Below are positions 52,827 through 62,685 of a stretch of DNA of 64,000 bases, in pieces. A model generated the notes under the pieces. The model searched no databases. It was not told the origin of the DNA and saw only the letters and a program-made list of their open reading frames with translations. This stretch comes from Myxococcus stipitatus DSM 14675 (GTDB lineage: Bacteria > Myxococcota > Myxococcia > Myxococcales > Myxococcaceae): assembly GCF_000331735.1 (NCBI RefSeq), contig NC_020126.1, positions 5,022,001 through 5,086,000 of the forward strand, read 5' to 3'. The translations under genes were made by a program, and so were the position numbers. Each line of letters starts with the position of its first letter. Position 1 is the stretch's first letter.

Positions 52827-54107
52827 ATGGTTCTTCCGTTTCGCAAGACGCTCTTCTGGATTCACCTCGCCGTGGGCATCGTCACCGGCATCGTCGTGGC
52901 CATCATGTCGGTGACGGGCGTGGCCCTGGCCTTCCAGCCGCAGGTCATCGCGTGGGCGGAGTCGGAGGCTCGCACCGTGCCCGCTCCGGGCGCGGATGCC
53001 CGCAGGCTCACCGTCGAGGAACTGCTGGCGAAGGTGCGCGAGGCCCGGCCGGAAGCCCAGGTGTCTGGCATCACCGTGTATCCCTCCGAGACGGCGTCCG
53101 CGCAGGTGGCGCTGGGCCGCACGGCGGTGCTCTACGTGAATCCCTACTCGGGTGAGGTGCTCGAGAGCGGGTCGAAGGGGTGGCGTTCGTTCTTCCACCT
53201 GATGGAGGAGTGGCACCGGTGGCTGGCCACGGGCGGCGACAACCGCGCCGTGGGCAAGGCCATCACCGGGGCGTCCAACGCGGGCTTCCTCTTCCTGGCG
53301 CTGTCGGGTCTCTACCTGTGGTGGCCGCGCAACTGGTCGCGCAAGGCCGTGCGCTCCGTGGTGTGGTTCCGCGGTGGGTTGAAGGGCAAGGCTCGCGACT
53401 TCAACTGGCACAACGTGATGGGCTTCTGGATGCTGCCCGTGCTCGTCGTTCTCACGGCGTCCGGCATGGTCATCTCGTACAAGTGGGCGAGTGACCTCGT
53501 CTACACGGTGACGGGCAACGCCGTTCCCGCGCAGGGCGGCGGAGGCGTGAAGGTCCCCGCTCCGGAGACCGGCACCGAGCGCAAGACGGTGAGCGCGATG
53601 GTGTCCACCGTCCAGGAGCAGGTCCCCACGTGGGCGAGCATCACCTACCGAATCCCGTCGCCGCCCAAGGGCGCGCAGGGCAAGCCGTCGGAGCAGCCCG
53701 GTGGCCCGAAGGGTGGGGGCGAGCCTCGTGGGGGTGAGCAGGGCAAGCCGTCGGAGCCCCCGGGCCCGCCGAAGGCCGACGCCGTGTCGTTCAGCGTGAA
53801 GGAGAAGGACGCCTGGCCGCTGTTCTCCTCCACGCAAGTCTCGGTGGACCCCTTCACCGGACAGGTGGCGAAGCGCGAGGGCTATGCGGACCTGAACTCG
53901 GGCCGCCAGATGCGCTCCTGGCTGCGCTTCCTCCACACGGGTGAGGCGCTGGGGTGGCCGGGCCAGCTCATCGCCGCCATCGCCTCGTTGGCGGGGGCCT
54001 TCCTGGTGTGGACGGGCTTCGCCCTGTCGTGGCGGCGCTTCTTCCCTCGACGCCAGCCGCGCGCCGAGGTGCCCGCGTCCACGGGCGAATCGGAGACCCC
54101 CGCCTAG
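52827..54107 (+). CDS. PepSY-associated transmembrane protein, iron-uptake type
   Basis: 426 residues with four membrane helices: one at about 10-35 (IHLAVGIVTGIVVAIMSVTG), two around 140-165 and 195-220 (LPVLVVLTASGMVIS), and one near 380-405. Conserved histidines sit at the helix ends (FWIHLAVG, EEWHRWLA, NWHNVMGF). The family is found beside siderophore receptors and is thought to take part in iron release or reduction at the inner membrane. A Pro/Gly/Lys-rich insert (about residues 283-315) in the periplasmic loop is specific to this protein. It lies directly after tonB. Confidence 0.88.
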   Translation: MVLPFRKTLFWIHLAVGIVTGIVVAIMSVTGVALAFQPQVIAWAESEARTVPAPGADARRLTVEELLAKVREARPEAQVSGITVYPSETASAQVALGRTAVLYVNPYSGEVLESGSKGWRSFFHLMEEWHRWLATGGDNRAVGKAITGASNAGFLFLALSGLYLWWPRNWSRKAVRSVVWFRGGLKGKARDFNWHNVMGFWMLPVLVVLTASGMVISYKWASDLVYTVTGNAVPAQGGGGVKVPAPETGTERKTVSAMVSTVQEQVPTWASITYRIPSPPKGAQGKPSEQPGGPKGGGEPRGGEQGKPSEPPGPPKADAVSFSVKEKDAWPLFSSTQVSVDPFTGQVAKREGYADLNSGRQMRSWLRFLHTGEALGWPGQLIAAIASLAGAFLVWTGFALSWRRFFPRRQPRAEVPASTGESETPA

Positions 54108-54137
54108 GACTCTTCCCCGGGCGGGCGAGGTTCCCGC

Positions 54138-54165
54138 GGCACCTTCGGGTGCCAGCTTATTGATT
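54138..54165 (+). terminator. UUCG-tetraloop hairpin after the PepSY gene
   Basis: GGCACC (54138-54143) and GGTGCC (54148-54153) pair around a TTCG loop closed by C-G, one of the most stable RNA tetraloops, followed by AGCTTATT, a weak U-rich tail. It should end the tonB-PepSY transcript 30 bases past the stop codon and implies that the receptor gene has its own promoter. Confidence 0.55.
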
Positions 54166-54175
54166 CTAATAATCG
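54161..54175. promoter_or_regulatory. Weak Fur-like site before the receptor gene
   Basis: TGATTCT-A-ATAATCG matches the 7-1-7 Fur consensus at 10 of 14 positions but is not a good palindrome. It lies in an AT-rich patch 64 bases before the receptor ATG, directly after the terminator, where a regulated promoter is expected. Confidence 0.25.
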
Positions 54176-54238
54176 TCGTTTCCGCGAATTTCTATTGAGA
54201 GCCCGGCGCCACGAGTGCGGCCGGGAGTGGAGAAGTCC

Positions 54239-56536
54239 ATGTCGTTCAGCAAGTCGCGTAGCGCTGGCATCCGGTCGAGTGTGGGGCACGTGGGTGGAGT
54301 TCGGGCGGCGCTGAAGCCGTGGGGGCCGGCGGTGGGGTTGGTGTCCGCGCTGGCGGCGGGTGGCGCGGTGGCGCAGGAGCCCGCGGCGGAGACGCCTCGC
54401 GCGGAGGCGCCGGTGGAGGCCTCGGCGGCCCCTGCCGAGCAGGCGCCCGCGTCGACGGAGTCCCAGCAGGGCACGGAGGGCCGCTTCGTGCTGCCCACCC
54501 TGGAGGTGCAGGGGGAGACGGAGAGCTATCAGGTCCGTGAGAGCGCGCTGCCCAAGGTGCAGAAGGCCCTGGTGAACACGCCGCAGTCGGTGACGGTGGT
54601 GCCCGAGGCGGTGATGGAGGAGCAGCGGGCGACGACGGTGCGGGACGCGCTCCGCAACGTCTCCGGCATCACGATGAGCGCAGGCGAGGGGGTCCGCCAG
54701 GGTGACTCCTTCATGCTGCGGGGCTTCTCCGCGCAGAACGACGTGTCCCGCGATGGTGCCCGTGACCTGGGCTGGTTCACGCGCGACACGTTCAACCTGG
54801 AGGGCGTGGAGGCGTACTTCGGTCCGTCGTCCGTGCTCTTCGGCCGTGGCTCCGCCGGTGGCGCCATCAACCTGGTGACGAAGAAGCCCAAGCGCACGTC
54901 CTTCCAGGAGGTGGCGCTCAGCGGCGGCACCGCGCCCACGGGCCGTGTCGACGCGGACATCAACCAGGTGCTGTCCGAGGACCTCCAGCTCCGCCTGAAC
55001 GTCATGGGCCAGCTGTCCTCGACGGCGGGCCGCGACGTGACGAAGGACAACCGCGTGGGTGTGGCGCCGTCGCTGCGCTACAAGCTCGCGGAGCGCACCA
55101 CGCTGGAGATGGACTACATGTTCCAGCGGGAGGACGGCATCCCGGACTACGGCGTGCCGTACTTCAACGGCAGCCCCGTCACCGAGTCGCTCGACGTGCC
55201 GCGCGAGAACTTCTACGGCGTGAAGTCCGACAAGGAGCGCGTGGACGCGCACGTCGCCACCGCCCGCGTCACCCAGGGCCTGGGCGAGTCGCTCCAGTTC
55301 ACCAACACGCTGCGCTTCGGCCGCGTGGACCGCTTCGCCAGCCCCACCGCGCCGCGAGGCCTGACGCCCGCGGGGGCCCCGACGACCATCGGCCGGCAGC
55401 GCTTCCAGACGGAGACGGACAACTCGTACCTCGCCAACCAGGCCGCGGTGGGCGGTGAGCTGACGACGGGCTTCCTCGAGCACAGCGCCAACGCGGGCGT
55501 GGAGCTGACCTGGGAGAAGCGCAGCCAGGGCCGCTTCAACCTCAACGCGGTGGGCCTGCCGACGGGCCCCAACCTCCCGGCGGACCTGTTCAACCCGGAC
55601 TCGGACCCGGACCTTTCCGCGGTGTCGCCCGTGTTCTCCAGCGCCAGCGTGAGCGTGCAGCGGACGCTGGGCCTCTACATCGCCGACCAGATCGAGCTGG
55701 GGCCCTATGTGGAGCTGCTGGGCTCGGTGCGCTGGGACGTGTTCAACACGGACTACGTCTCCACGGCCGCCTCGGGCGCGAAGACCCGGCTGCAGAGCAG
55801 CGACCACCTCCTCAACTGGCGCGCGGGCGTGGTCCTCAAGCCGGTGGAGAAGGTGAGCGTCTACGGCATGTACGGCACCTCCGCGAGCCCCTCCGCCGAG
55901 CTGGGCACGCTGGCCGCCGACACCGTGAGCCTGGACCCGGAGAAGAACACCATCATCGAGGCGGGCGCGAAGGCGGACCTGCTCGAGGATCGGCTGGGGC
56001 TCACCGCCGCGGTGTTCCGCATCAACAAGACGGACGCGCGCGTGCCCAACACCAACCCGGAAGGGCCGCCGCAGGTGCTCGCCGGTGAGCAGCGCGTGCA
56101 GGGCCTCAACCTGGGCGTGGCCGGCACCATCGTCGAGCGCTGGAAGGTGCTCGCCAACTACACGCTGATGGACTCCGCCATCGTCGAGCACACGACGCCG
56201 CACATGGTCGGCCAGCGGCTGCCCAACACGCCGCGCCACAGCCTCTCGCTGTGGACGACGTACTCCCCCCTGAAGGACTTCACCTTGGGTGGCGGCGCCA
56301 TCTACCAGGACGTCACGAGCGTCAACAACCCGACCTCGGCCACCGCGGTGACGAACTACGTGCCGAACTTCTGGCGCTTCGATGCCTTCGCGAGCTACGC
56401 GTTCGGCAAGGCGCTGGTCCAGCTCAACGTCTACAACCTCACCGACACGCTGTACTACGACCAGTACTACGCGGGTCACGCCGTCCCCGCGGAGGGCATG
56501 TCGGCCCTGCTGACGGCTCGCTACCGCTTCGACTGA
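54239..56536 (+). CDS. TonB-dependent siderophore receptor
   Basis: 765 residues. An N-terminal signal (ending near VAQEP, residue 45) and an Ala/Pro/Glu linker precede the TonB box region. The plug domain (about 85-210) has NTPQSVTVVPEAVMEE, LRNVSGITMSAGEGVRQGDS and VEAYFGPSSVLFGRGSAGGA, all hallmarks of siderophore receptors of the FhuA/FepA group. A 22-strand barrel follows, ending in ALLTARYRFD. It imports ferric siderophore across the outer membrane with energy from TonB. ATG 54239 has GGAGA five bases upstream. It sits between the tonB-PepSY genes and the piuC-type hydroxylase. The siderophore itself cannot be told. Confidence 0.93.
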   Translation: MSFSKSRSAGIRSSVGHVGGVRAALKPWGPAVGLVSALAAGGAVAQEPAAETPRAEAPVEASAAPAEQAPASTESQQGTEGRFVLPTLEVQGETESYQVRESALPKVQKALVNTPQSVTVVPEAVMEEQRATTVRDALRNVSGITMSAGEGVRQGDSFMLRGFSAQNDVSRDGARDLGWFTRDTFNLEGVEAYFGPSSVLFGRGSAGGAINLVTKKPKRTSFQEVALSGGTAPTGRVDADINQVLSEDLQLRLNVMGQLSSTAGRDVTKDNRVGVAPSLRYKLAERTTLEMDYMFQREDGIPDYGVPYFNGSPVTESLDVPRENFYGVKSDKERVDAHVATARVTQGLGESLQFTNTLRFGRVDRFASPTAPRGLTPAGAPTTIGRQRFQTETDNSYLANQAAVGGELTTGFLEHSANAGVELTWEKRSQGRFNLNAVGLPTGPNLPADLFNPDSDPDLSAVSPVFSSASVSVQRTLGLYIADQIELGPYVELLGSVRWDVFNTDYVSTAASGAKTRLQSSDHLLNWRAGVVLKPVEKVSVYGMYGTSASPSAELGTLAADTVSLDPEKNTIIEAGAKADLLEDRLGLTAAVFRINKTDARVPNTNPEGPPQVLAGEQRVQGLNLGVAGTIVERWKVLANYTLMDSAIVEHTTPHMVGQRLPNTPRHSLSLWTTYSPLKDFTLGGGAIYQDVTSVNNPTSATAVTNYVPNFWRFDAFASYAFGKALVQLNVYNLTDTLYYDQYYAGHAVPAEGMSALLTARYRFD

Positions 56537-56551
56537 GAGAGGTTCGCGGTC

Positions 56552-57232
56552 ATGATGTTGCACATCCCAAACGTCCTGACCGCGGCCGAAGTGGCTCGCT
56601 GCCGCACGGTGATGGAGAAGGCGGACTGGACGGACGGCCGGGTCACGGCGGGCCACCAGTCCGCGCAGGTGAAGCAGAACCTCCAGCTCCCCGAAGGGGG
56701 CGCGGCCGCGCGCGAGCTGGGGGACCTGGTGCTGGCGGGGCTGGAGCGCAGTCCGCTCTTCATCTCCGCCGTGCTGCCTCAGCGCGTCTTCCCGCCGCTG
56801 TTCAATCGCTACGAGACGAACATGCACTTCGGCTCGCACGTGGACGGCGCCATCCGGCCCATTCCGGGGACGGCGCAGCGCGTGCGCACGGATGTGTCGG
56901 CCACGCTGTTCCTCTCGGAGCCGGACAGCTACGACGGGGGAGAGCTGGTGGTGGAGGACACCTACGGCCACCACGCCGTGAAGCTACCGGCGGGGGACCT
57001 CATCATCTACCCGTCCACCAGCCTGCACCACGTGACGCCCGTCACGCGGGGCGCGAGGCTGGCGTCGTTCTTCTGGATTCAGAGCCTGGTGCGGGACGTG
57101 TCGAAGCGCGCGCTGCTGTTCGACATGGACACCGCCATCATGCAGCTCAACCAGGAGGTGCCCAAGAGCCCCTCCCTGGTCATGCTGACGGGCGTCTACC
57201 ACAACCTGCTCCGCCAATGGGCGGAGCCCTGA
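56552..57232 (+). CDS. piuC: PKHD-type Fe(II)/2-oxoglutarate hydroxylase, PiuC family
   Basis: 226 residues, the usual length. The iron site is His96/Asp98 (GSHVDGAI) and His159 in [13 protein letters not shown], with Arg169 for 2-oxoglutarate. The opening [13 protein letters not shown] and the middle [18 protein letters not shown] are diagnostic. PiuC/YbiX-type proteins are encoded next to siderophore receptors and are iron-regulated; their substrate is not established. GAGG nine bases before ATG 56552 and the 15-base gap to the receptor gene indicate a shared transcript. It converges with the helicase gene. Confidence 0.92.
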
Positions 57233-57241
57233 GTCAGCGGT

Positions 57242-58960
57242 TCAGGTCCGGTCCTTGCGGATGAGGACCTTCCGGCCGCGAATCGTCGCCGCCTTCAGCG
57301 CCGCGATGACGCGGTTGGCGTCGGGCTCCGGGACCTCCACCAGCGAGAACGCGTCGGTGATCTGAATCGCGCCGATGCGGGACGAGTCCAGCCCGGCCTC
57401 ACCCGCGATGGCGCCCACCAGGTCCGCGGGGCGGATGCCTGCTTGTCGGCCCGCGCCAATCCAGAGGCGCGTGGTGTCCCAGGAGCCCTGCTGCGGACGG
57501 CGAGGACCGCTCCCACGCTCGGGGCGACCACTCGGCCTGCCACCGGGACCCGTGGGGCGGCCCGGCCGGTCCTTGCGCTCCTGGAGCGGAGCGACGGCGG
57601 GAATCTCTTCCTCTTCCTTCGCGCGGCCCTCGTCCTGGGCATCCTGGAGCAGCTTCACGGCCGCGGCGGCGATGTCGAGCGGCTCGAACTCGCCGGCCAG
57701 ATCCTCCACGAGGCTCCGGAACGAGTCCTGGCCACCGGCCACCAGCACCTCGCGCAGGGTGGCGCGCAGCAGCTCCTGCCGCTTGGCGCGCAGGTCCGCC
57801 ACGGTGGGGACGGTGGCGACCTGGATGCGCTGGCCCGTCACCTTCTCGATGTTGCGCAGCAGCCGGTGCTCGCGAGGCTCCACCAGCGTGATGGCCACGC
57901 CCTCCCGGCCCGCGCGGCCGGTGCGGCCGATGCGGTGCACATACGCCTCCGGGGCGTTGGGCACGTCGAAGTTCACCACGTGGGAGAGCCGGGGGATGTC
58001 CAGGCCTCGCGCGGCGACGTCCGTGGCGACGAGCAGGTCGGTGCCATGCGACTTGAGCTGCTTGATGACGCGATCCCGCTGCTCCTGCGTCATGCCGCCG
58101 TGGAGCGCGTGGGCGCGCCAGCCCCGGCCGTTGAGGGACACGGTGAGGTCATCCACCTCCGTGCGCGTGCGGCAGAAGATGATGGCGGCGGTGGGGGACT
58201 CCACGTCGAGCAGGCGGCCCAGCGCGGCGATCTTGAACGCGCGCGGCACGACGAACGCGGTCTGCTGGATGCGCGGCAGCTCACCCGGCTCCACCTTCTC
58301 CTTGGCGATGCGCACACGCACCGGCTGCCGCAGGTGGCGCTCGGCGATGCTCGCGATGCGCGGGGGCAGGGTGGCGGAGAAGAGGGCGGTCTGCCGGTCC
58401 TCGGGCGTCCCGGAGAGGATGGCCTCCAGGTCATCGGCGAAGCCCATGTCCAGCATCTCGTCGGCCTCGTCGAGGACGACGGTCTGCACGTGGTCCAACT
58501 GGAGCGTGCCCCGGCGCAGGTGGTCCAGCGCGCGGCCGGGCGTGGCGACGACGACGTCCACGCCGCGCTTGAGGACGCGAAGCTGCTGGCCGATGACCTG
58601 CCCGCCGTAGAGCGGGAGGACGGTGGCGCCCAGCTTCTGGCCGTAGCGGTGGATGGCCTCGGACACCTGCATGGCCAGCTCGCGCGTGGGGACGAGCACC
58701 AGGGCGGAGGTGGTGTGCGGCCGGGCCTTGCCCGGGGTCAGGTGGTGCAGGAGCGGGAGCGCGAAGGCGGCCGTCTTGCCGGTTCCGGTGGCGGCGATGC
58801 CCAGCAGGTCCTTCCCAGCGAGCAGGGGCGGGAGGGACGCGTGCTGAATAGGCGTGGGTTCCTCGTAACCGAGGGACGTGAGCGCCTCCACGAGCTGGGG
58901 CTTCAGGCCCAGGGATTCAAAGGTGGCGTCGGGGGGGGCGGACGGCGGTGCGGAAGTCAC
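57242..58960 (-). CDS. DEAD-box RNA helicase with C-terminal DbpA-type RNA-binding domain
   Basis: 572 residues from GTG 58960. The full helicase set is present: Q motif (TFESLGLKPQ, PTPIQHA), motif I ATGTGKT, Ib TPGR, II VLDEADEML, III SAT, IV IIFCRT, V ARGLDIP and VI HRIGRTGRAGR. After an acidic and Arg/Gly/Pro-rich linker (about 450-490), the last 75 residues form a DbpA-type RNA-binding domain (RLWIGAGRQAGIRPADLVGA, then FSLVEVP). This architecture is that of CsdA/DeaD- and DbpA-type enzymes that remodel rRNA or mRNA. The frame extends to 59023, but those codons (AGA, ATT, CTT, CGA) are atypical. It lies 106 bases downstream of the Dbr1-like gene on the same strand. Confidence 0.93.
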   Translation of the reverse strand: MTSAPPSAPPDATFESLGLKPQLVEALTSLGYEEPTPIQHASLPPLLAGKDLLGIAATGTGKTAAFALPLLHHLTPGKARPHTTSALVLVPTRELAMQVSEAIHRYGQKLGATVLPLYGGQVIGQQLRVLKRGVDVVVATPGRALDHLRRGTLQLDHVQTVVLDEADEMLDMGFADDLEAILSGTPEDRQTALFSATLPPRIASIAERHLRQPVRVRIAKEKVEPGELPRIQQTAFVVPRAFKIAALGRLLDVESPTAAIIFCRTRTEVDDLTVSLNGRGWRAHALHGGMTQEQRDRVIKQLKSHGTDLLVATDVAARGLDIPRLSHVVNFDVPNAPEAYVHRIGRTGRAGREGVAITLVEPREHRLLRNIEKVTGQRIQVATVPTVADLRAKRQELLRATLREVLVAGGQDSFRSLVEDLAGEFEPLDIAAAAVKLLQDAQDEGRAKEEEEIPAVAPLQERKDRPGRPTGPGGRPSGRPERGSGPRRPQQGSWDTTRLWIGAGRQAGIRPADLVGAIAGEAGLDSSRIGAIQITDAFSLVEVPEPDANRVIAALKAATIRGRKVLIRKDRT

Positions 58961-59066
58961 GGCGGGGCTTGTACCACCGGGTTCCACTCTCGTGGCTCGA
59001 AGAATCGCTCTTCTGTCCCACATCTATCGCACACGTCGTGTCGTGGACGGTCCGCCCAGGGGGGCC

Positions 59067-59918
59067 TCAGGCCGGTTCCGGGGTGCCCAGGTGGGTGATC
59101 TCCCGAATCCCGAGAGAGGAGACCTGGAACACGGCGAAGGCCTCGGCCCCCTGCTCCACGCTGGCCAGGCAGCACACCTGGGAGGGGGGGCCCGAGGTGT
59201 GGGCGAGTACGCCCCGATAGCCCTTGTGCAGGTGGCCGCAGAGCACGAGCCGGGGTTGGAGCGCCTCTGTCAGGAGCCGTGCGTACTCGTTGCCCACGGC
59301 GTCCGCGTCGGGGCTGCGGCGCTGTTGCGCGAAGGCTCCTCGGTCCTGGGTCGCGATGATTCCGGAGGGCCAGTCGTGGACGACCAGCACGTCCGCGCGG
59401 CCGAACGCCAGGGCGCGCTCGATGTCTTCTTCGTGGAAGAAGGTGAAGGCCTTGTTCGACACGGAGCCCAGCAGGGACAGCGGCGGGTGGGGCTTCTGGA
59501 AGGAGGCCGCGTCGTGGATGCCGGAGACGCCGACGACGCTCAGGCCGTTCAGGTCGACGGCGCTCGAGCGCCCCAGGTAGTGGCAGTTCGGCGCGAGCTG
59601 GAAGCCGCGTGGCTCGGTGTCCAGGTAGCCATGGGGCTCGTGGTTGCCGCCGATGAAGTGGACGGGCCAGGGGAAGTGACGGCGCTTCTGGTGGTAGTCG
59701 GCGAAGTCGCCCAGGTGCTTGTGGCGCGCGGGGGCGGCCATGGTCGCCAGGTCGGCTTCGTCGCGGTGGGGCTCGAAGTCACCCACCTGGAGGACGAAGT
59801 CCAGCTCGTGTCGGGCGCGCTTCGACCACGCCTGGAGGAAGGACACCATCCGGTGCATGCGCCCATGCACGTCGCCCACGGCGGCGAAGCAGAAGCTCTC
59901 GAGGGAAGGGAGGGGCAT
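59067..59918 (-). CDS. Metallophosphoesterase resembling RNA lariat debranching enzyme Dbr1
   Basis: 283 residues. All calcineurin-like metal motifs are present: GDVHG (Asp16, His18), GDFE (Asp47), GGNHE (Asn92, His93), VVHDWP (His181) and GHLHKG (His229, His231). Beyond the generic fold, long segments follow eukaryotic Dbr1: RDEADLATMAAPARHKH (Dbr1: R-N-E-A-D-L, then M-A-x-P), FIGGNHE with a Leu/Pro-rich stretch, APNCHYLG (Dbr1: APN-x-YYLG), VVGVSGIHD (Dbr1: G-x-SGI) and HDWPSGI (Dbr1: SHDWP-x-x-I). Dbr1 cleaves 2'-5' phosphodiester bonds of branched RNA. One difference is that Dbr1 has Cys in the first motif (GCxH) where this protein has Asp16. The start lies 10 bases after the stop of the USP-phospholipase D gene. 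The comparison is from memory of Dbr1 sequences. Confidence 0.85.
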   Translation of the reverse strand: MPLPSLESFCFAAVGDVHGRMHRMVSFLQAWSKRARHELDFVLQVGDFEPHRDEADLATMAAPARHKHLGDFADYHQKRRHFPWPVHFIGGNHEPHGYLDTEPRGFQLAPNCHYLGRSSAVDLNGLSVVGVSGIHDAASFQKPHPPLSLLGSVSNKAFTFFHEEDIERALAFGRADVLVVHDWPSGIIATQDRGAFAQQRRSPDADAVGNEYARLLTEALQPRLVLCGHLHKGYRGVLAHTSGPPSQVCCLASVEQGAEAFAVFQVSSLGIREITHLGTPEPA

Positions 59919-59928
59919 GGAGGAAGGC

Positions 59929-62685
59929 TCAGCCGACGAGGGAGGGCCAGTTGCGACCGACCCAGGCCCGTTGCTCGACTTCTTCGCGCCAGCGCGAGTC
60001 CTCGCGGTCGATGCGCCGCGATGTGGCGAAGAGGGGCGTCAGGGCTTCGAGCATCCGCTCCGCGAAGGGTGGGTCCTCGACGATGAGCAGGGCCTCGCTC
60101 TCCCAATAGGCGGCGGTGACGTCCAGGTTCGCGCTGCCGACCGCGACCGCCGTGGTGTCACAGACGAGGAGCTTCGCGTGGACGTGGGGACAGAGTTGCT
60201 CCAGCGCGGGTTCCCACGTCGGCCGGGTGGGCAGGGCCAGCTCGTAGGCGATGGCGCCCGCGGCGATGACCGCGTCCAGCCGGCTGCGCACGTAGTGGTC
60301 CGCCACTTCACGGAGGGCTCCGCCCGGGAAGTAGGTCCGAGCGTCTCCGTAGTGAGGACGGACGCTGCCGAAGAGAATCTCCACGCGCACGCCCCGGCGC
60401 ACGGCGGCGATGAGGGCGTTCTGGATCTCGAGCAGCAGGGGGAAGGTGTTCACCAGCACGAGCCGTGAGCGCGCATGGCGGATGAGCGCGAGCTGTGTAT
60501 CGAGCGTGTGTGTATCCCGGAGTCCCTCGTGGAGGACCAGTCTCGCCGCCATCGTCCCCTCGGGAGCTGACTCCGGGATGTCGAACGGTTCGCCGCCGGC
60601 CCGGGCCCACTCGGCCAGGAACGCGCGCTCGAGGTCGCCGACGAGGGGGCCCTTCAGCCGGGCGCCGCAGTCGAGCCAGGGGATGTCTCGATAGGGCGTG
60701 TCCCGGTGCAGGTCCACCTCGTCGAAGCCCGTGTAGTAGGGCGCGCCGAGGTTGCGTCCGGAGACGAAGGCCCGCGTGGAGTCGATGAGCGTCAGCTTGC
60801 GGTGGTTGCGCTGCTTGAGCTCGGAGAGGCTCGGGACACCGACGAGCGGGGCAATGGCGCGCACCTCCACGAGCGGTGTCTCCGACAGGGAGACGAGCGC
60901 GGGGTTGAGGGCGCCGAAGGAGTCATGGCCGCTGTAGAGCGCATCCGCGAGGAAGCGCACGCGCACGCCTCGCGATGCGGCGCGCTTCAGGGCCTCCGTG
61001 ATGCGGGCCGTGATGGCGTCGTCCTCGACGATGTAGCACTGCCAATGGAGGGTGCTCCGGGCCGCGTCGATGGCGGCCAGGAGGGATTCACGAGCGAGCC
61101 GGTTGTCGAGCTCGAACGCGATGTCATGCCCTCCCCGTCGAGGGCCGCAGCCCGCGAGCACCAGCTCGCGGGCGAATGCCCCTGGCTCATCGGGAATGGG
61201 GAGCGGCTCCAGCGGCGTGGTCCGCGACAGCGCCACGCACTCCTCGGGGCTCAGGGTGCGGAGGTGCGGATGGACAGGTTTGTATGAATCGCGCGTGAGG
61301 ACAGCGGCGATGGGGATGTGCGCGGCGGCGAGGCGAGTCGCGACTCGCAGGAGCCGCTGGCCATCGACCTGCCTGGGGACATCATCGGCGCGCGCATCGT
61401 CGAGCCATGCGCTGGCATCGAGCAGCAGCGGCCAGGGGAGGTCGGGCAGCTTCTCTCGCAGGTGTGCACGCTGCTGGGCAAGGGAGTCGCTGTCGCGCAG
61501 CCGCACGAAGACCAGGTGATAGCGCTCGGCCGCCAAGGCTCGGGCCGCGTCGAGCGCCTCCTCGTCCACCAGGCTGTCCACGAGGAGCACGGGCTTCTCG
61601 GGGGCCAGCACGTAGCAGGGCGTCAGGTGTCGGGGGGCCGAGGCTCCCGCGAAGGAGAACGCGAGGGCATGGGGTCCTCTCGTGTGCTCGAACCAGGAGG
61701 CGTCGAGCACGGCGGTGCCTCCCTCATGCCCGCCGTGGCCCAGGGTGTTTCCTCCCTCGAAGAGCGTGAGGTCTCCGGCGTCGGGAACGGAGACGCTCGA
61801 CATGAAGCCCACGCGCTCCACGGCGAAGCGCGGCGCCAGCCCAGGAGCCGAGAGGGAGTCGGAGACCGCGTAGGTGTCCTCGAACAACGGGGACGAGGGC
61901 TGCGCGCGGGGCAGCATCAGAAGGGGGACCCGAGCCTCCTGGAGGGCCTTGGCGCCGAACAGGCCCAGCATCAGCGCCTCCACATCGGCGAGGGCATCGG
62001 CTGGAACGAGCAGGAGGTCCGCGCCGGAGCGCAGCGCCGCGACGTCGAAGACCTCGGCGCGACTGTGGGCGGGGTTCTCGGTGAGGGCTTCGACGTGGAG
62101 CAACTGGTCGATGCCCAGGGCCCGGCTCAGGGCCTGGAGATGCGAGACCTGCTCGGGCTCCAGCTCGGACGTGAGCGCGACCAACTCGGAGCGCACGGCA
62201 CAGCGGGAGAGGAACGTGGCCACGGCGCCGAGTCCCCGTCCATCCGGCGCGACAGCCACCGCCGTGCGAGCGGGCGTGGCGGGAGAGGGCGCGGCCGCCT
62301 TGCCGATGGAGAGCACGGGGAGGTGCTCCCGCAAGCAGAGCATGAGCATGGCGCCCACGCGGGCTCTCGGCGACGTATCGAGATGCGGACCGAAGACGAC
62401 CAACTCCGCGCCGTGCTTCGTGGCCACGTGGACGATGCCCCCGGTGTCGAGGTGCGTCTCCAGCGCGCCGCTCACCTGGATGCCGGCATCCCAGTCATGC
62501 AGGGCGTGGCGAAGGCGGTCCAGCACGGTGAGGCTGGCGGGCGGAGGTGCCTCCAGCTCACTGCGCTCGGGCACGAGCCCGTACAGATAGACGGCCTCGG
62601 GAGCGGCGGTCAGCCGCTGGACCCAATGAATGACCTGCTCGGACTCCGAGCCGGCATCGAAGACGACCACGAGACGACGGAACAT
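59929..62685 (-). CDS. Universal-stress-domain / phospholipase D (cardiolipin synthase-like) fusion
   Basis: 918 residues. Residues 1-275 contain two tandem Usp-like domains (FRRLVVVFDAGSESEQ; AELVVFGPHLDTSPRARVGA; RTAVAVAPDGRGLGAVATFL; ADLLLVPADALADVEALM). Residues about 300-500 are of unknown type. The C-terminal part (about 530-918) is a phospholipase D core with two HKD motifs: His628/Lys630/Asp635 (NHRKLTLID) and His836/Lys838/Asp843 (HVHAKLLVCD), each followed by GR-N or GS-N (SGRNLG, VGSANLD). It is most like cardiolipin synthases but lacks their N-terminal membrane helices, so other phosphodiesters, including nucleic acid, are possible substrates. It heads the minus-strand gene set with the Dbr1-like and helicase genes. 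Confidence 0.88.
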   Translation of the reverse strand: MFRRLVVVFDAGSESEQVIHWVQRLTAAPEAVYLYGLVPERSELEAPPPASLTVLDRLRHALHDWDAGIQVSGALETHLDTGGIVHVATKHGAELVVFGPHLDTSPRARVGAMLMLCLREHLPVLSIGKAAAPSPATPARTAVAVAPDGRGLGAVATFLSRCAVRSELVALTSELEPEQVSHLQALSRALGIDQLLHVEALTENPAHSRAEVFDVAALRSGADLLLVPADALADVEALMLGLFGAKALQEARVPLLMLPRAQPSSPLFEDTYAVSDSLSAPGLAPRFAVERVGFMSSVSVPDAGDLTLFEGGNTLGHGGHEGGTAVLDASWFEHTRGPHALAFSFAGASAPRHLTPCYVLAPEKPVLLVDSLVDEEALDAARALAAERYHLVFVRLRDSDSLAQQRAHLREKLPDLPWPLLLDASAWLDDARADDVPRQVDGQRLLRVATRLAAAHIPIAAVLTRDSYKPVHPHLRTLSPEECVALSRTTPLEPLPIPDEPGAFARELVLAGCGPRRGGHDIAFELDNRLARESLLAAIDAARSTLHWQCYIVEDDAITARITEALKRAASRGVRVRFLADALYSGHDSFGALNPALVSLSETPLVEVRAIAPLVGVPSLSELKQRNHRKLTLIDSTRAFVSGRNLGAPYYTGFDEVDLHRDTPYRDIPWLDCGARLKGPLVGDLERAFLAEWARAGGEPFDIPESAPEGTMAARLVLHEGLRDTHTLDTQLALIRHARSRLVLVNTFPLLLEIQNALIAAVRRGVRVEILFGSVRPHYGDARTYFPGGALREVADHYVRSRLDAVIAAGAIAYELALPTRPTWEPALEQLCPHVHAKLLVCDTTAVAVGSANLDVTAAYWESEALLIVEDPPFAERMLEALTPLFATSRRIDREDSRWREEVEQRAWVGRNWPSLVG

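Follow-up and report, generated by a model that had tools for sequence, protein, structure and literature searches.

Introduction

Dbr1 is the eukaryotic enzyme that opens RNA lariats, CWF19L1 (Drn1) is its non-catalytic partner, and retron msDNA is a branched RNA-DNA molecule with 2'-5' branches. In the part of PMC10470207 available to us, Dbr1 is described as the sole known enzyme selective for the lariat 2'-5' linkage, with a cysteine and a recognition loop that are unique to it, and its uniqueness is traced to that Cys replacing an Asp conserved in every other metallophosphoesterase. According to the available part of PMC4176325, the Entamoeba histolytica enzyme requires Cys14 (C14A and C14S are inactive), its loop of residues 130-158 with the invariant Arg158, and its C-terminal domain, while Tyr64 stacks on the branchpoint base. 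Eukaryotic DBR1 also debranches retron RT-DNA in vitro, exposing the RT-DNA to RecJ (PMC8989520, in part), and yeast DBR1 serves merely as a reagent in the portion of PMC12039810 available. Across the open-access literature that we searched, the titles and abstract openings among the matches listed named neither a bacterial Dbr1 nor a bacterial enzyme removing the 2'-5' branches of msDNA, and no open-access paper joining retron, type XIII and Myxococcus was found.

Here, we describe a dbr1-like gene from Myxococcus stipitatus DSM 14675, contained in a 64,000-nucleotide stretch of the genome (NC_020126.1, positions 5,022,001 to 5,086,000) that we call the window. The gene and its relatives of the same type are referred to as A (A-like in other lineages), a second Dbr1-like protein of the same genome as paralogue B, and a further set of proteins from other Myxococcota as group C; their coordinates and those of the features discussed below are given in Table 1. 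Within the Dbr1/CWF19L1 group, the gene represents a branch that is bacterial and of the Asp type, with debranching as a candidate role. A near-complete Dbr1 active site with Asp in place of Cys provides a natural comparison for the rise of branch specificity and of the Cys site, and a bacterial family bears on the origin of both Dbr1 and CWF19L1.

Table 1. Features of the dbr1-like locus and of paralogue B (window positions unless a contig or locus is named)
Feature	Position	Strand	Remarks
dbr1-like metallophosphoesterase gene, A	59067..59918	minus	283-aa ORF; Dbr1 is the best solved relative
Asp16 of GDVHG, site of Dbr1 Cys14	59871..59873	minus	From residue table
Dbr1-like block R52-x-EADL-x2-MA-x-P63	59730..59765	minus	Block pattern absent from 28 other metallophosphoesterase domains
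Segment P-x-[KR]-[YH]-x3-GDF with Dbr1 Tyr64 position	59703..59732	minus	His66 in window protein
FIGGNHE, residues 88-94, with metal ligand Asn92 and catalytic His93	59637..59657	minus	
Stretch at the place of the Dbr1 lariat-recognition loop, residues 132-159	59442..59525	minus	28 aa in alignment
HDWP metal-ligand motif	59367..59378	minus	
GHLH, last two metal-site histidines, His229 and His231	59226..59237	minus	
Upstream gene, 918-aa protein with universal-stress-protein (Usp) domain at start and phospholipase-D-like (PLD-like) domains at end	59929..62685	minus	
Downstream DEAD-box RNA helicase of the DeaD/CshA/DbpA kind	57242..59023	minus	
Paralogue B, second Dbr1-like protein, outside the window	C1:3803929-3804672	plus	34% identity to A
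Paralogue B, further loci	L002:1495-2409, L034:6924-7835		

Sequence and structural relationship to Dbr1

An earlier note on this DNA, made from the letters alone, had proposed that the open reading frame encodes a bacterial homologue of Dbr1. The exact frame is open and lies on the minus strand, which that note had left unstated, and the Dbr1 blocks that it listed are all present in the order it gave (R52-x-EADL-x2-MA-x-P63, FIGGNHE at 88-94, APN-x2-YLG at 109-116, G-x-SGI at 130-134 and HDWP-x-x-I at 181-187), as is Asp16, seen in GDVHG, in the first metal motif where Dbr1 has Cys. When searched as regular expressions, five patterns (block 1, [GA]GNHE, FI[GA]GNHE, H[DE]WP and [YF]LG...SG) each matched none of 28 other metallophosphoesterase domains from the same genome. 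Not every family member has the block-1 pattern, which matches 17 of 40 core rows of our alignment and is missing from three A-like rows and from every B, C and CWF19L1 row. The dbr1-like gene is under purifying selection (dN/dS of 0.17-0.30 in four comparisons), and a scan for promoters and terminators found nothing.

Searches against solved structures place the window protein next to Dbr1. By phmmer against the PDB, Entamoeba Dbr1 came first (1.9e-31) and five distinct Dbr1 sequences were recovered, followed by CWF19L1 at 0.18 and then noise. A profile built from 12 orthologues matched Dbr1 at 8.2e-41 and CWF19L1 at 5.7e-6 and 1.9e-4; at E<=1 it otherwise retrieved nothing but cytochrome P450 rows. 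An AlphaFold2 (AF2) model computed from 47 aligned bacterial and viral-contig sequences reached a pLDDT of 94.2 and a pTM of 0.92, an earlier model from 12 close sequences having been poorer (pLDDT 77). Structure search had been named in advance as a check, and Dbr1 ranked first in it, well ahead of generic phosphoesterases: Foldseek returned Dbr1 at 3.1e-25, CWF19L1 at 5.6e-17 and LpxH third at 5.6e-9, and VIA-align placed eight Dbr1 entries at Z-scores of 31.6-32.1 (256-257 residues aligned) and CWF19L1 at 24.5 and 21.9, with the other 40 of the 50 entries among the matches listed at 18.6 or below. The structural alignment spans Dbr1 residues 5-266 (257 residues), which is the whole catalytic domain with the loop region and almost none of the C-terminal domain. 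A fold search against viral models returned phage and giant-virus metallophosphoesterases, one of them named an RNA lariat debranching enzyme, with E-values weaker than that of the PDB Dbr1 match.

That the Dbr1 likeness is mere superfamily background, and the protein a generic bacterial nucleotide phosphoesterase, seems to us barely credible. Above cut-off, Pfam gives the window protein only general Metallophos models and NCBIfam gives no match, which speaks for this view, but phmmer, the profile, Foldseek, VIA-align, the motif patterns and the quick tree described below all contradict it. Pfam does contain a family for the Dbr1 C-terminal region, and this family is not among the matches of the window protein at E<=1. 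Profile search, AF2 structure search and quick tree thus agree on homology specific to Dbr1 and beyond the superfamily level, and sequence, structure model and tree all put the window protein in the Dbr1/CWF19L1 branch of the metallophosphoesterases, as one of its bacterial members.

Active-site residues

Active-site positions were compared across a 40-row table that uses the Entamoeba Dbr1 numbering of PMC4176325, in the part available. Residues H16, D45, N90, H91, H180, H230 and H232 of Dbr1 are kept in all 18 A and A-like rows. At the alpha-site position, 39 of the 40 rows, every bacterial row included, have Asp, and Entamoeba Dbr1 alone has Cys. The position of Tyr64 is occupied by Tyr in six of seven A rows and in nine of 11 A-like rows of other lineages, by His (His66) in the window protein, and by Arg in each of the 10 B rows. 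Lengths of the stretch corresponding to the recognition loop, which depend on the alignment, are 24-29 aa for A and A-like proteins (28 for the window protein), 29 for Entamoeba Dbr1, 26 for B, 22 for group C and 11-13 for CWF19L1. The loop residue Arg158 is not conserved (the residue-table alignment has a gap opposite it, and in the phmmer alignment the window protein has Glu there), and the Dbr1 C-terminal domain (residues 262-354) is absent from the window protein, which ends at residue 283.

The window protein has the fold, the catalytic His and all but one of the metal ligands in common with Entamoeba histolytica Dbr1 (4peh, 5k77, 5k78 and further structures), together with the R-x-E-x-D block, the loop length and HDWP, and most of its relatives also have the PxKYxxxGDF segment; it is unlike Dbr1 in its Asp for Cys14, its lack of the C-terminal domain, its unconserved Arg158 and an overall identity of 27-28%. 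Because of the Asp in place of the invariant Cys and the missing C-terminal domain, we describe the protein as Dbr1-like and not as Dbr1. The earlier designation as a homologue of Dbr1 is supported in part: the homology is specific to Dbr1, while the invariant Cys and the C-terminal domain are missing and the careful tree (below) makes the protein, with weak resolution, a relative of the Dbr1 and CWF19L1 pair and not the orthologue of Dbr1 alone.

With the metal ligands and catalytic His kept and the usual Asp in the alpha site, the window protein should be an ordinary two-metal phosphodiesterase. The N-terminal domain of CWF19L1/Drn1 (8ro2, 8ro1) has the second-nearest fold and falls on the same tree branch, but it lacks the metal ligands and catalytic His, all of which the window protein retains, and its loop is shorter. 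This difference makes it very improbable that the window protein binds RNA or assists another protein without being a catalyst itself, in the way that Drn1/CWF19L1 serves Dbr1, even though CWF19L1 is the second-nearest solved relative and paralogue B has lost its catalytic His. Paralogue B, like A, has Dbr1 as the best match of its profile (1.3e-27, followed by CWF19L1 at 7.4e-12); where A has GGNHE, all 10 B rows have GGNNE, a replacement by which the catalytic His is lost and the metal ligands are kept, and B has Arg at the Tyr64 position.

Phylogeny

Two trees were built. A search of the genome found 35 metallophosphoesterase domains, the window gene and paralogue B among them, and the quick tree used 28 of the 33 others, five being without a locus. 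All 28 fell on one side of a branch with an SH-aLRT of 98, and A, B, C, Dbr1, CWF19L1 and the viral, haloarchaeal and Streptomyces-phage rows fell on the opposite side. A tree against generic phosphoesterases was also a check named in advance, and in the quick tree the window protein grouped with the Dbr1/CWF19 side.

The careful tree comprises 43 rows, from which Strphage_L191 and 24 of the 28 own metallophosphoesterases were left out; most Myxococcaceae loci from our scan of GTDB contigs are absent from both trees. Eukaryotic Dbr1 joins CWF19L1 (88/73) in it, and this pair is sister to the bacterial A and B rows (88/70), with a viral protein linked to BREX genes and group C outside A, B, Dbr1 and CWF19L1. 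The data do not reject an alternative in which 16 A-type rows form a clade with Dbr1 (p-AU 0.204). The four own outgroup metallophosphoesterases are not one side of any branch: two of them, on branches of 5.4 and 3.95, sit with group C and the haloarchaeal protein among the basal rows, outside the group that unites A, B, Dbr1 and CWF19L1 with the viral protein (91/76), so that the careful tree alone does not repeat the clean split of the quick tree. Both trees are flagged for meeting long branches (in the careful tree, Dbr1 with CWF19L1) and for odd composition of the Dbr1, CWF19L1, viral and two cyanobacterial rows. The gene belongs in the Dbr1/CWF19L1 group, and the order in which the bacterial family, Dbr1 and CWF19L1 branch within it is weakly resolved. 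One-to-one orthology of A with Dbr1 and of B with CWF19L1 was considered and is not seen in the careful tree.

Group C (L048, L193-L197) carries IKGNHE-like and GHHH-like motifs and lies on the Dbr1 side of the quick tree, far from Dbr1. Like A, group C and a metallophosphoesterase of the Halorubrum plasmid pHLAC01 fall on the Dbr1 side of that tree; unlike A, they have a loop of 22, no WP after the ligand His and far branches.

Distribution

Within the order, a match (A, B or weaker) was found in 73 of 145 genomes, with A at E<1e-100 in 30 of the 145, and 23 of 27 genomes from the genus of the window carry A at that threshold. Across the phylum, the A profile matches 76 of 195 genomes, a figure that counts in B and C genes. 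By hand count, a B-like match is present in all 59 genomes of six core Myxococcaceae genera, and A in 30 of them. The scan of GTDB contigs, which used an alignment led by Entamoeba Dbr1 and only two peptide patterns, so that distant homologues such as those of Asgard archaea lie beyond its reach, gave 49 loci. Outside Myxococcaceae, A-like loci were found in cyanobacteria (three), Sulfidibacter (Acidobacteriota), Planctomycetota (two), two Myxococcota metagenome-assembled genomes (MAGs) without a stated family, an Ardenticatenales MAG (Chloroflexota) and Planobispora (Actinomycetota), and related genes are patchy across six phyla. One cyanobacterial protein, L070, shares 37% identity with Entamoeba Dbr1 and 51% with the window protein, and its own genome is one of the two among 386 sampled cyanobacteria with the gene at E<1e-100; nine further matches in that sample were weaker (E 2.7e-6 to 4.2e-4) and are not included among the carriers. 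An origin from phages or plasmids was also considered and set aside: tblastn with the window protein gave only weak matches, in six phage and two plasmid records, and the Streptomyces-phage metallophosphoesterases are distant. Two contigs titled Comamonas sp. KCTC 72670 (L086, BNCN01000008; L091, BNCN01000003) hold A and B genes at Myxococcus-level identity, and the title looks wrong.

Gene neighborhood and phage defense

The stop of the upstream Usp/PLD-like gene lies about 10 bases before the start of the dbr1-like gene. Among 16 myxobacterial loci, a Usp/PLD-like gene is found within 4 kb of the dbr1-like gene in seven, adjoining it in five, and a DEAD-box helicase stands beside the gene in the same seven. 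As the PLD-like and helicase neighbors are kept in only these seven of 16 loci, neither was retained as an operon partner. Across 27 loci, the neighbors, whose families were named by eye, include an ABC-type ATPase in nine (with two Myxococcota MAGs among these), PLD-like proteins in eight (one planctomycete), kinase-like proteins in five and one further family in six. The simple gene caller recovered the dbr1-like gene itself in 21 of the 27 loci, so some neighbors may have been missed too. Neighbors shared outside the relatives of Myxococcus belong to common families, and the gene seems to stand alone.

A viral contig (L119:175-5771; IMGVR_UViG_3300001567_000262) carries a deep Dbr1-like relative immediately downstream of BREX pglZ and brxL, with genes resembling Fic-like and ParB-like ones nearby. 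Of the PADLOC models, those A, cyanobacterial, actinomycete, chloroflexal and BREX-linked proteins that were scanned match a single one, the phage-defense candidate PDC-S10; its match to the window protein is weak (1.3e-8, 32.4 bits) and partial, covering residues 174-234 only. These observations, along with the patchy spread over phyla, would fit a gene for phage defense, or one carried as cargo by mobile elements, whose product attacks foreign nucleic acid or processes it independently of retrons. We consider this reading distinctly unlikely, since only common neighbor families recur across lineages, the BREX-linked protein is a deep relative and not an orthologue, and the nearest PADLOC model, PDC-S10, is matched only in part.

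Retrons and co-occurrence

The genome has two reverse transcriptases (RTs), both best matched by the PADLOC model for type XIII retrons (491.7 bits against 286.0 for the next model, and 373.1 against 321.3), and we take the genome's own RT to be of the Mx162 type. The earlier note had suggested checking for a retron, and one is indicated by these two type-XIII retron-type RTs, Rfam having found no msr-like RNA at either locus. The RTs lie at 0.15 and 7.49 Mb, not adjacent to the dbr1-like gene at 5.08 Mb; the distance from RT to gene is at least 0.7 Mb in this genome and in Sulfidibacter, and in draft carriers the two are on different contigs, as judged from contig numbers in the accession numbers and confirmed for G195. 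Group II intron lariats, also put forward as a substrate in the earlier note, found no support here: no group II intron (RF00029) was detected in the genome, with 150 of 303 first-look candidates scored and four of 14 control genomes positive, making intron lariats an unlikely native substrate in this genome.

Within the order, an RT at E<1e-60 is present in all 30 carriers of A and in 39 of the 115 other genomes, as counted from hand-copied lists. All 59 genomes of the six core genera have an RT by hand count, and shared descent may therefore explain the link within the order. The gene is not a required part of a retron, being unlinked and missing from the 39 genomes of the order that have an RT without it. 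In eight Myxococcaceae genomes (G069, G071, G046, G043, G048, G047, G080 and G082), the part of the Mx162-type RT that aligns contains a single stop codon, which may lie at the gene end.

Outside the Myxococcaceae loci, seven of 11 carriers have a type-XIII retron RT. In six of 10, the RT is 43-52% identical to the Mx162-type RT, and the eleventh carrier, G376, also has one; of the four carriers without a type-XIII RT, one lacks any RVT_1 match. RT_XIII is the best model for all seven outside RTs, clearly in six and narrowly in L204, from G201, whose RT has two in-frame stops and was scanned as a 190-aa piece. NAxxH and VTG are marks of retron RTs, and the open RT frames of the outside carriers hold both, with YADD.

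At a cut-off of E<=1e-60, chosen after the scores were seen, an RT of this kind is found in 20 of 386 sampled cyanobacteria, both carriers included (18 of 384 others; Fisher p 0.0026), and in eight of 396 sampled Acidobacteriota, the carrier included (seven of 395 others, their non-carrier status being assumed; Fisher p 0.020). The two tests combined give p 0.0006, in statistics that ignore kinship, genome size and MAG quality. At E<=0.001 the backgrounds rise to 69 of 386 and 45 of 396, with p about 0.03 and 0.11 by hand calculation. The 11 carriers are not independent, because the genes of G200 and G202 are near-identical and the cyanobacterial carriers form one clade; the carriers are large genomes, several of them MAGs, and two RTs of non-carrier cyanobacteria (L205, L206) are also of type XIII. 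The co-occurrence outside the family is more telling than the link within the order, and we treat the association with retrons as no more than a lead. It points to one candidate msDNA debrancher and to the kinds of strains in which to test it.

Proposed function

The Tyr64 segment found in most relatives, with a loop of lariat-recognition length, suggests that the likeliest substrate is a branched or 2'-5'-linked nucleic acid. The best explanation of our analysis, one that we put slightly short of evenly probable, is that the protein acts on such a substrate and, under certain conditions, debranches or turns over retron msDNA or its branched RNA remnants. Against this explanation stand the Asp in place of Cys14, the missing C-terminal domain, the unconserved Arg158, the His of the window protein at the stacking position, the RTs lying far from the gene and the outside carriers without a type-XIII RT. 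By analogy with Dbr1, a metal-bound water would attack the 2'-5' phosphodiester and His93 would act as the acid, protonating the 2'-oxygen. The two type-XIII retrons are the only candidate source of branches found in the genome, and the cross-phylum co-occurrence suggests retron msDNA or its branched RNA remnants as the putative target. As DBR1 acts on RT-DNA in vitro, the turnover of msDNA could be under the control of such a bacterial enzyme. The debranching would not be constant, since msDNA of M. xanthus was isolated in branched form (PMC6868368, in the part available) and an M. xanthus strain, AM003 (L085), carries an orthologue.

A Dbr1-like fold with another job is a sizeable possibility that we rate below an even chance: the protein would be a two-metal phosphodiesterase or phosphatase acting on an unbranched substrate, such as a 2'-5' signaling oligonucleotide (cyclic or linear) or an RNA end, and the Cys and C-terminal domain would have been gained in eukaryotes together with lariats. 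The Asp in the alpha site of all bacterial rows, the absent C-terminal domain, the lack of physical linkage to retrons and the careful tree, which sets Dbr1 with CWF19L1 apart from the bacterial family, weakly (88/73), all speak for it. Against it are the co-occurrence with type-XIII retrons and two features that Dbr1 uses to recognize the branch, the Tyr64 segment and the long loop, both kept in most A-type rows across phyla. Debranching of msDNA or branched RNA remnants remains our preferred reading. In a more specific form that is possible but on balance unlikely, the protein would be a prokaryotic, Asp-type debranching enzyme that cuts the branch of type-XIII msDNA, perhaps on phage infection, and that was gained separately by retron genomes; it would belong to the bacterial stock beside which eukaryotic Dbr1 and CWF19L1 originated, and eukaryotes would have added the Cys and the C-terminal domain.

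Elsewhere in the window, a 956-aa open frame at 54104-56974 on the minus strand runs antisense to a gene at 54215-56536 that resembles a TonB-dependent receptor, and is probably a high-GC shadow frame.
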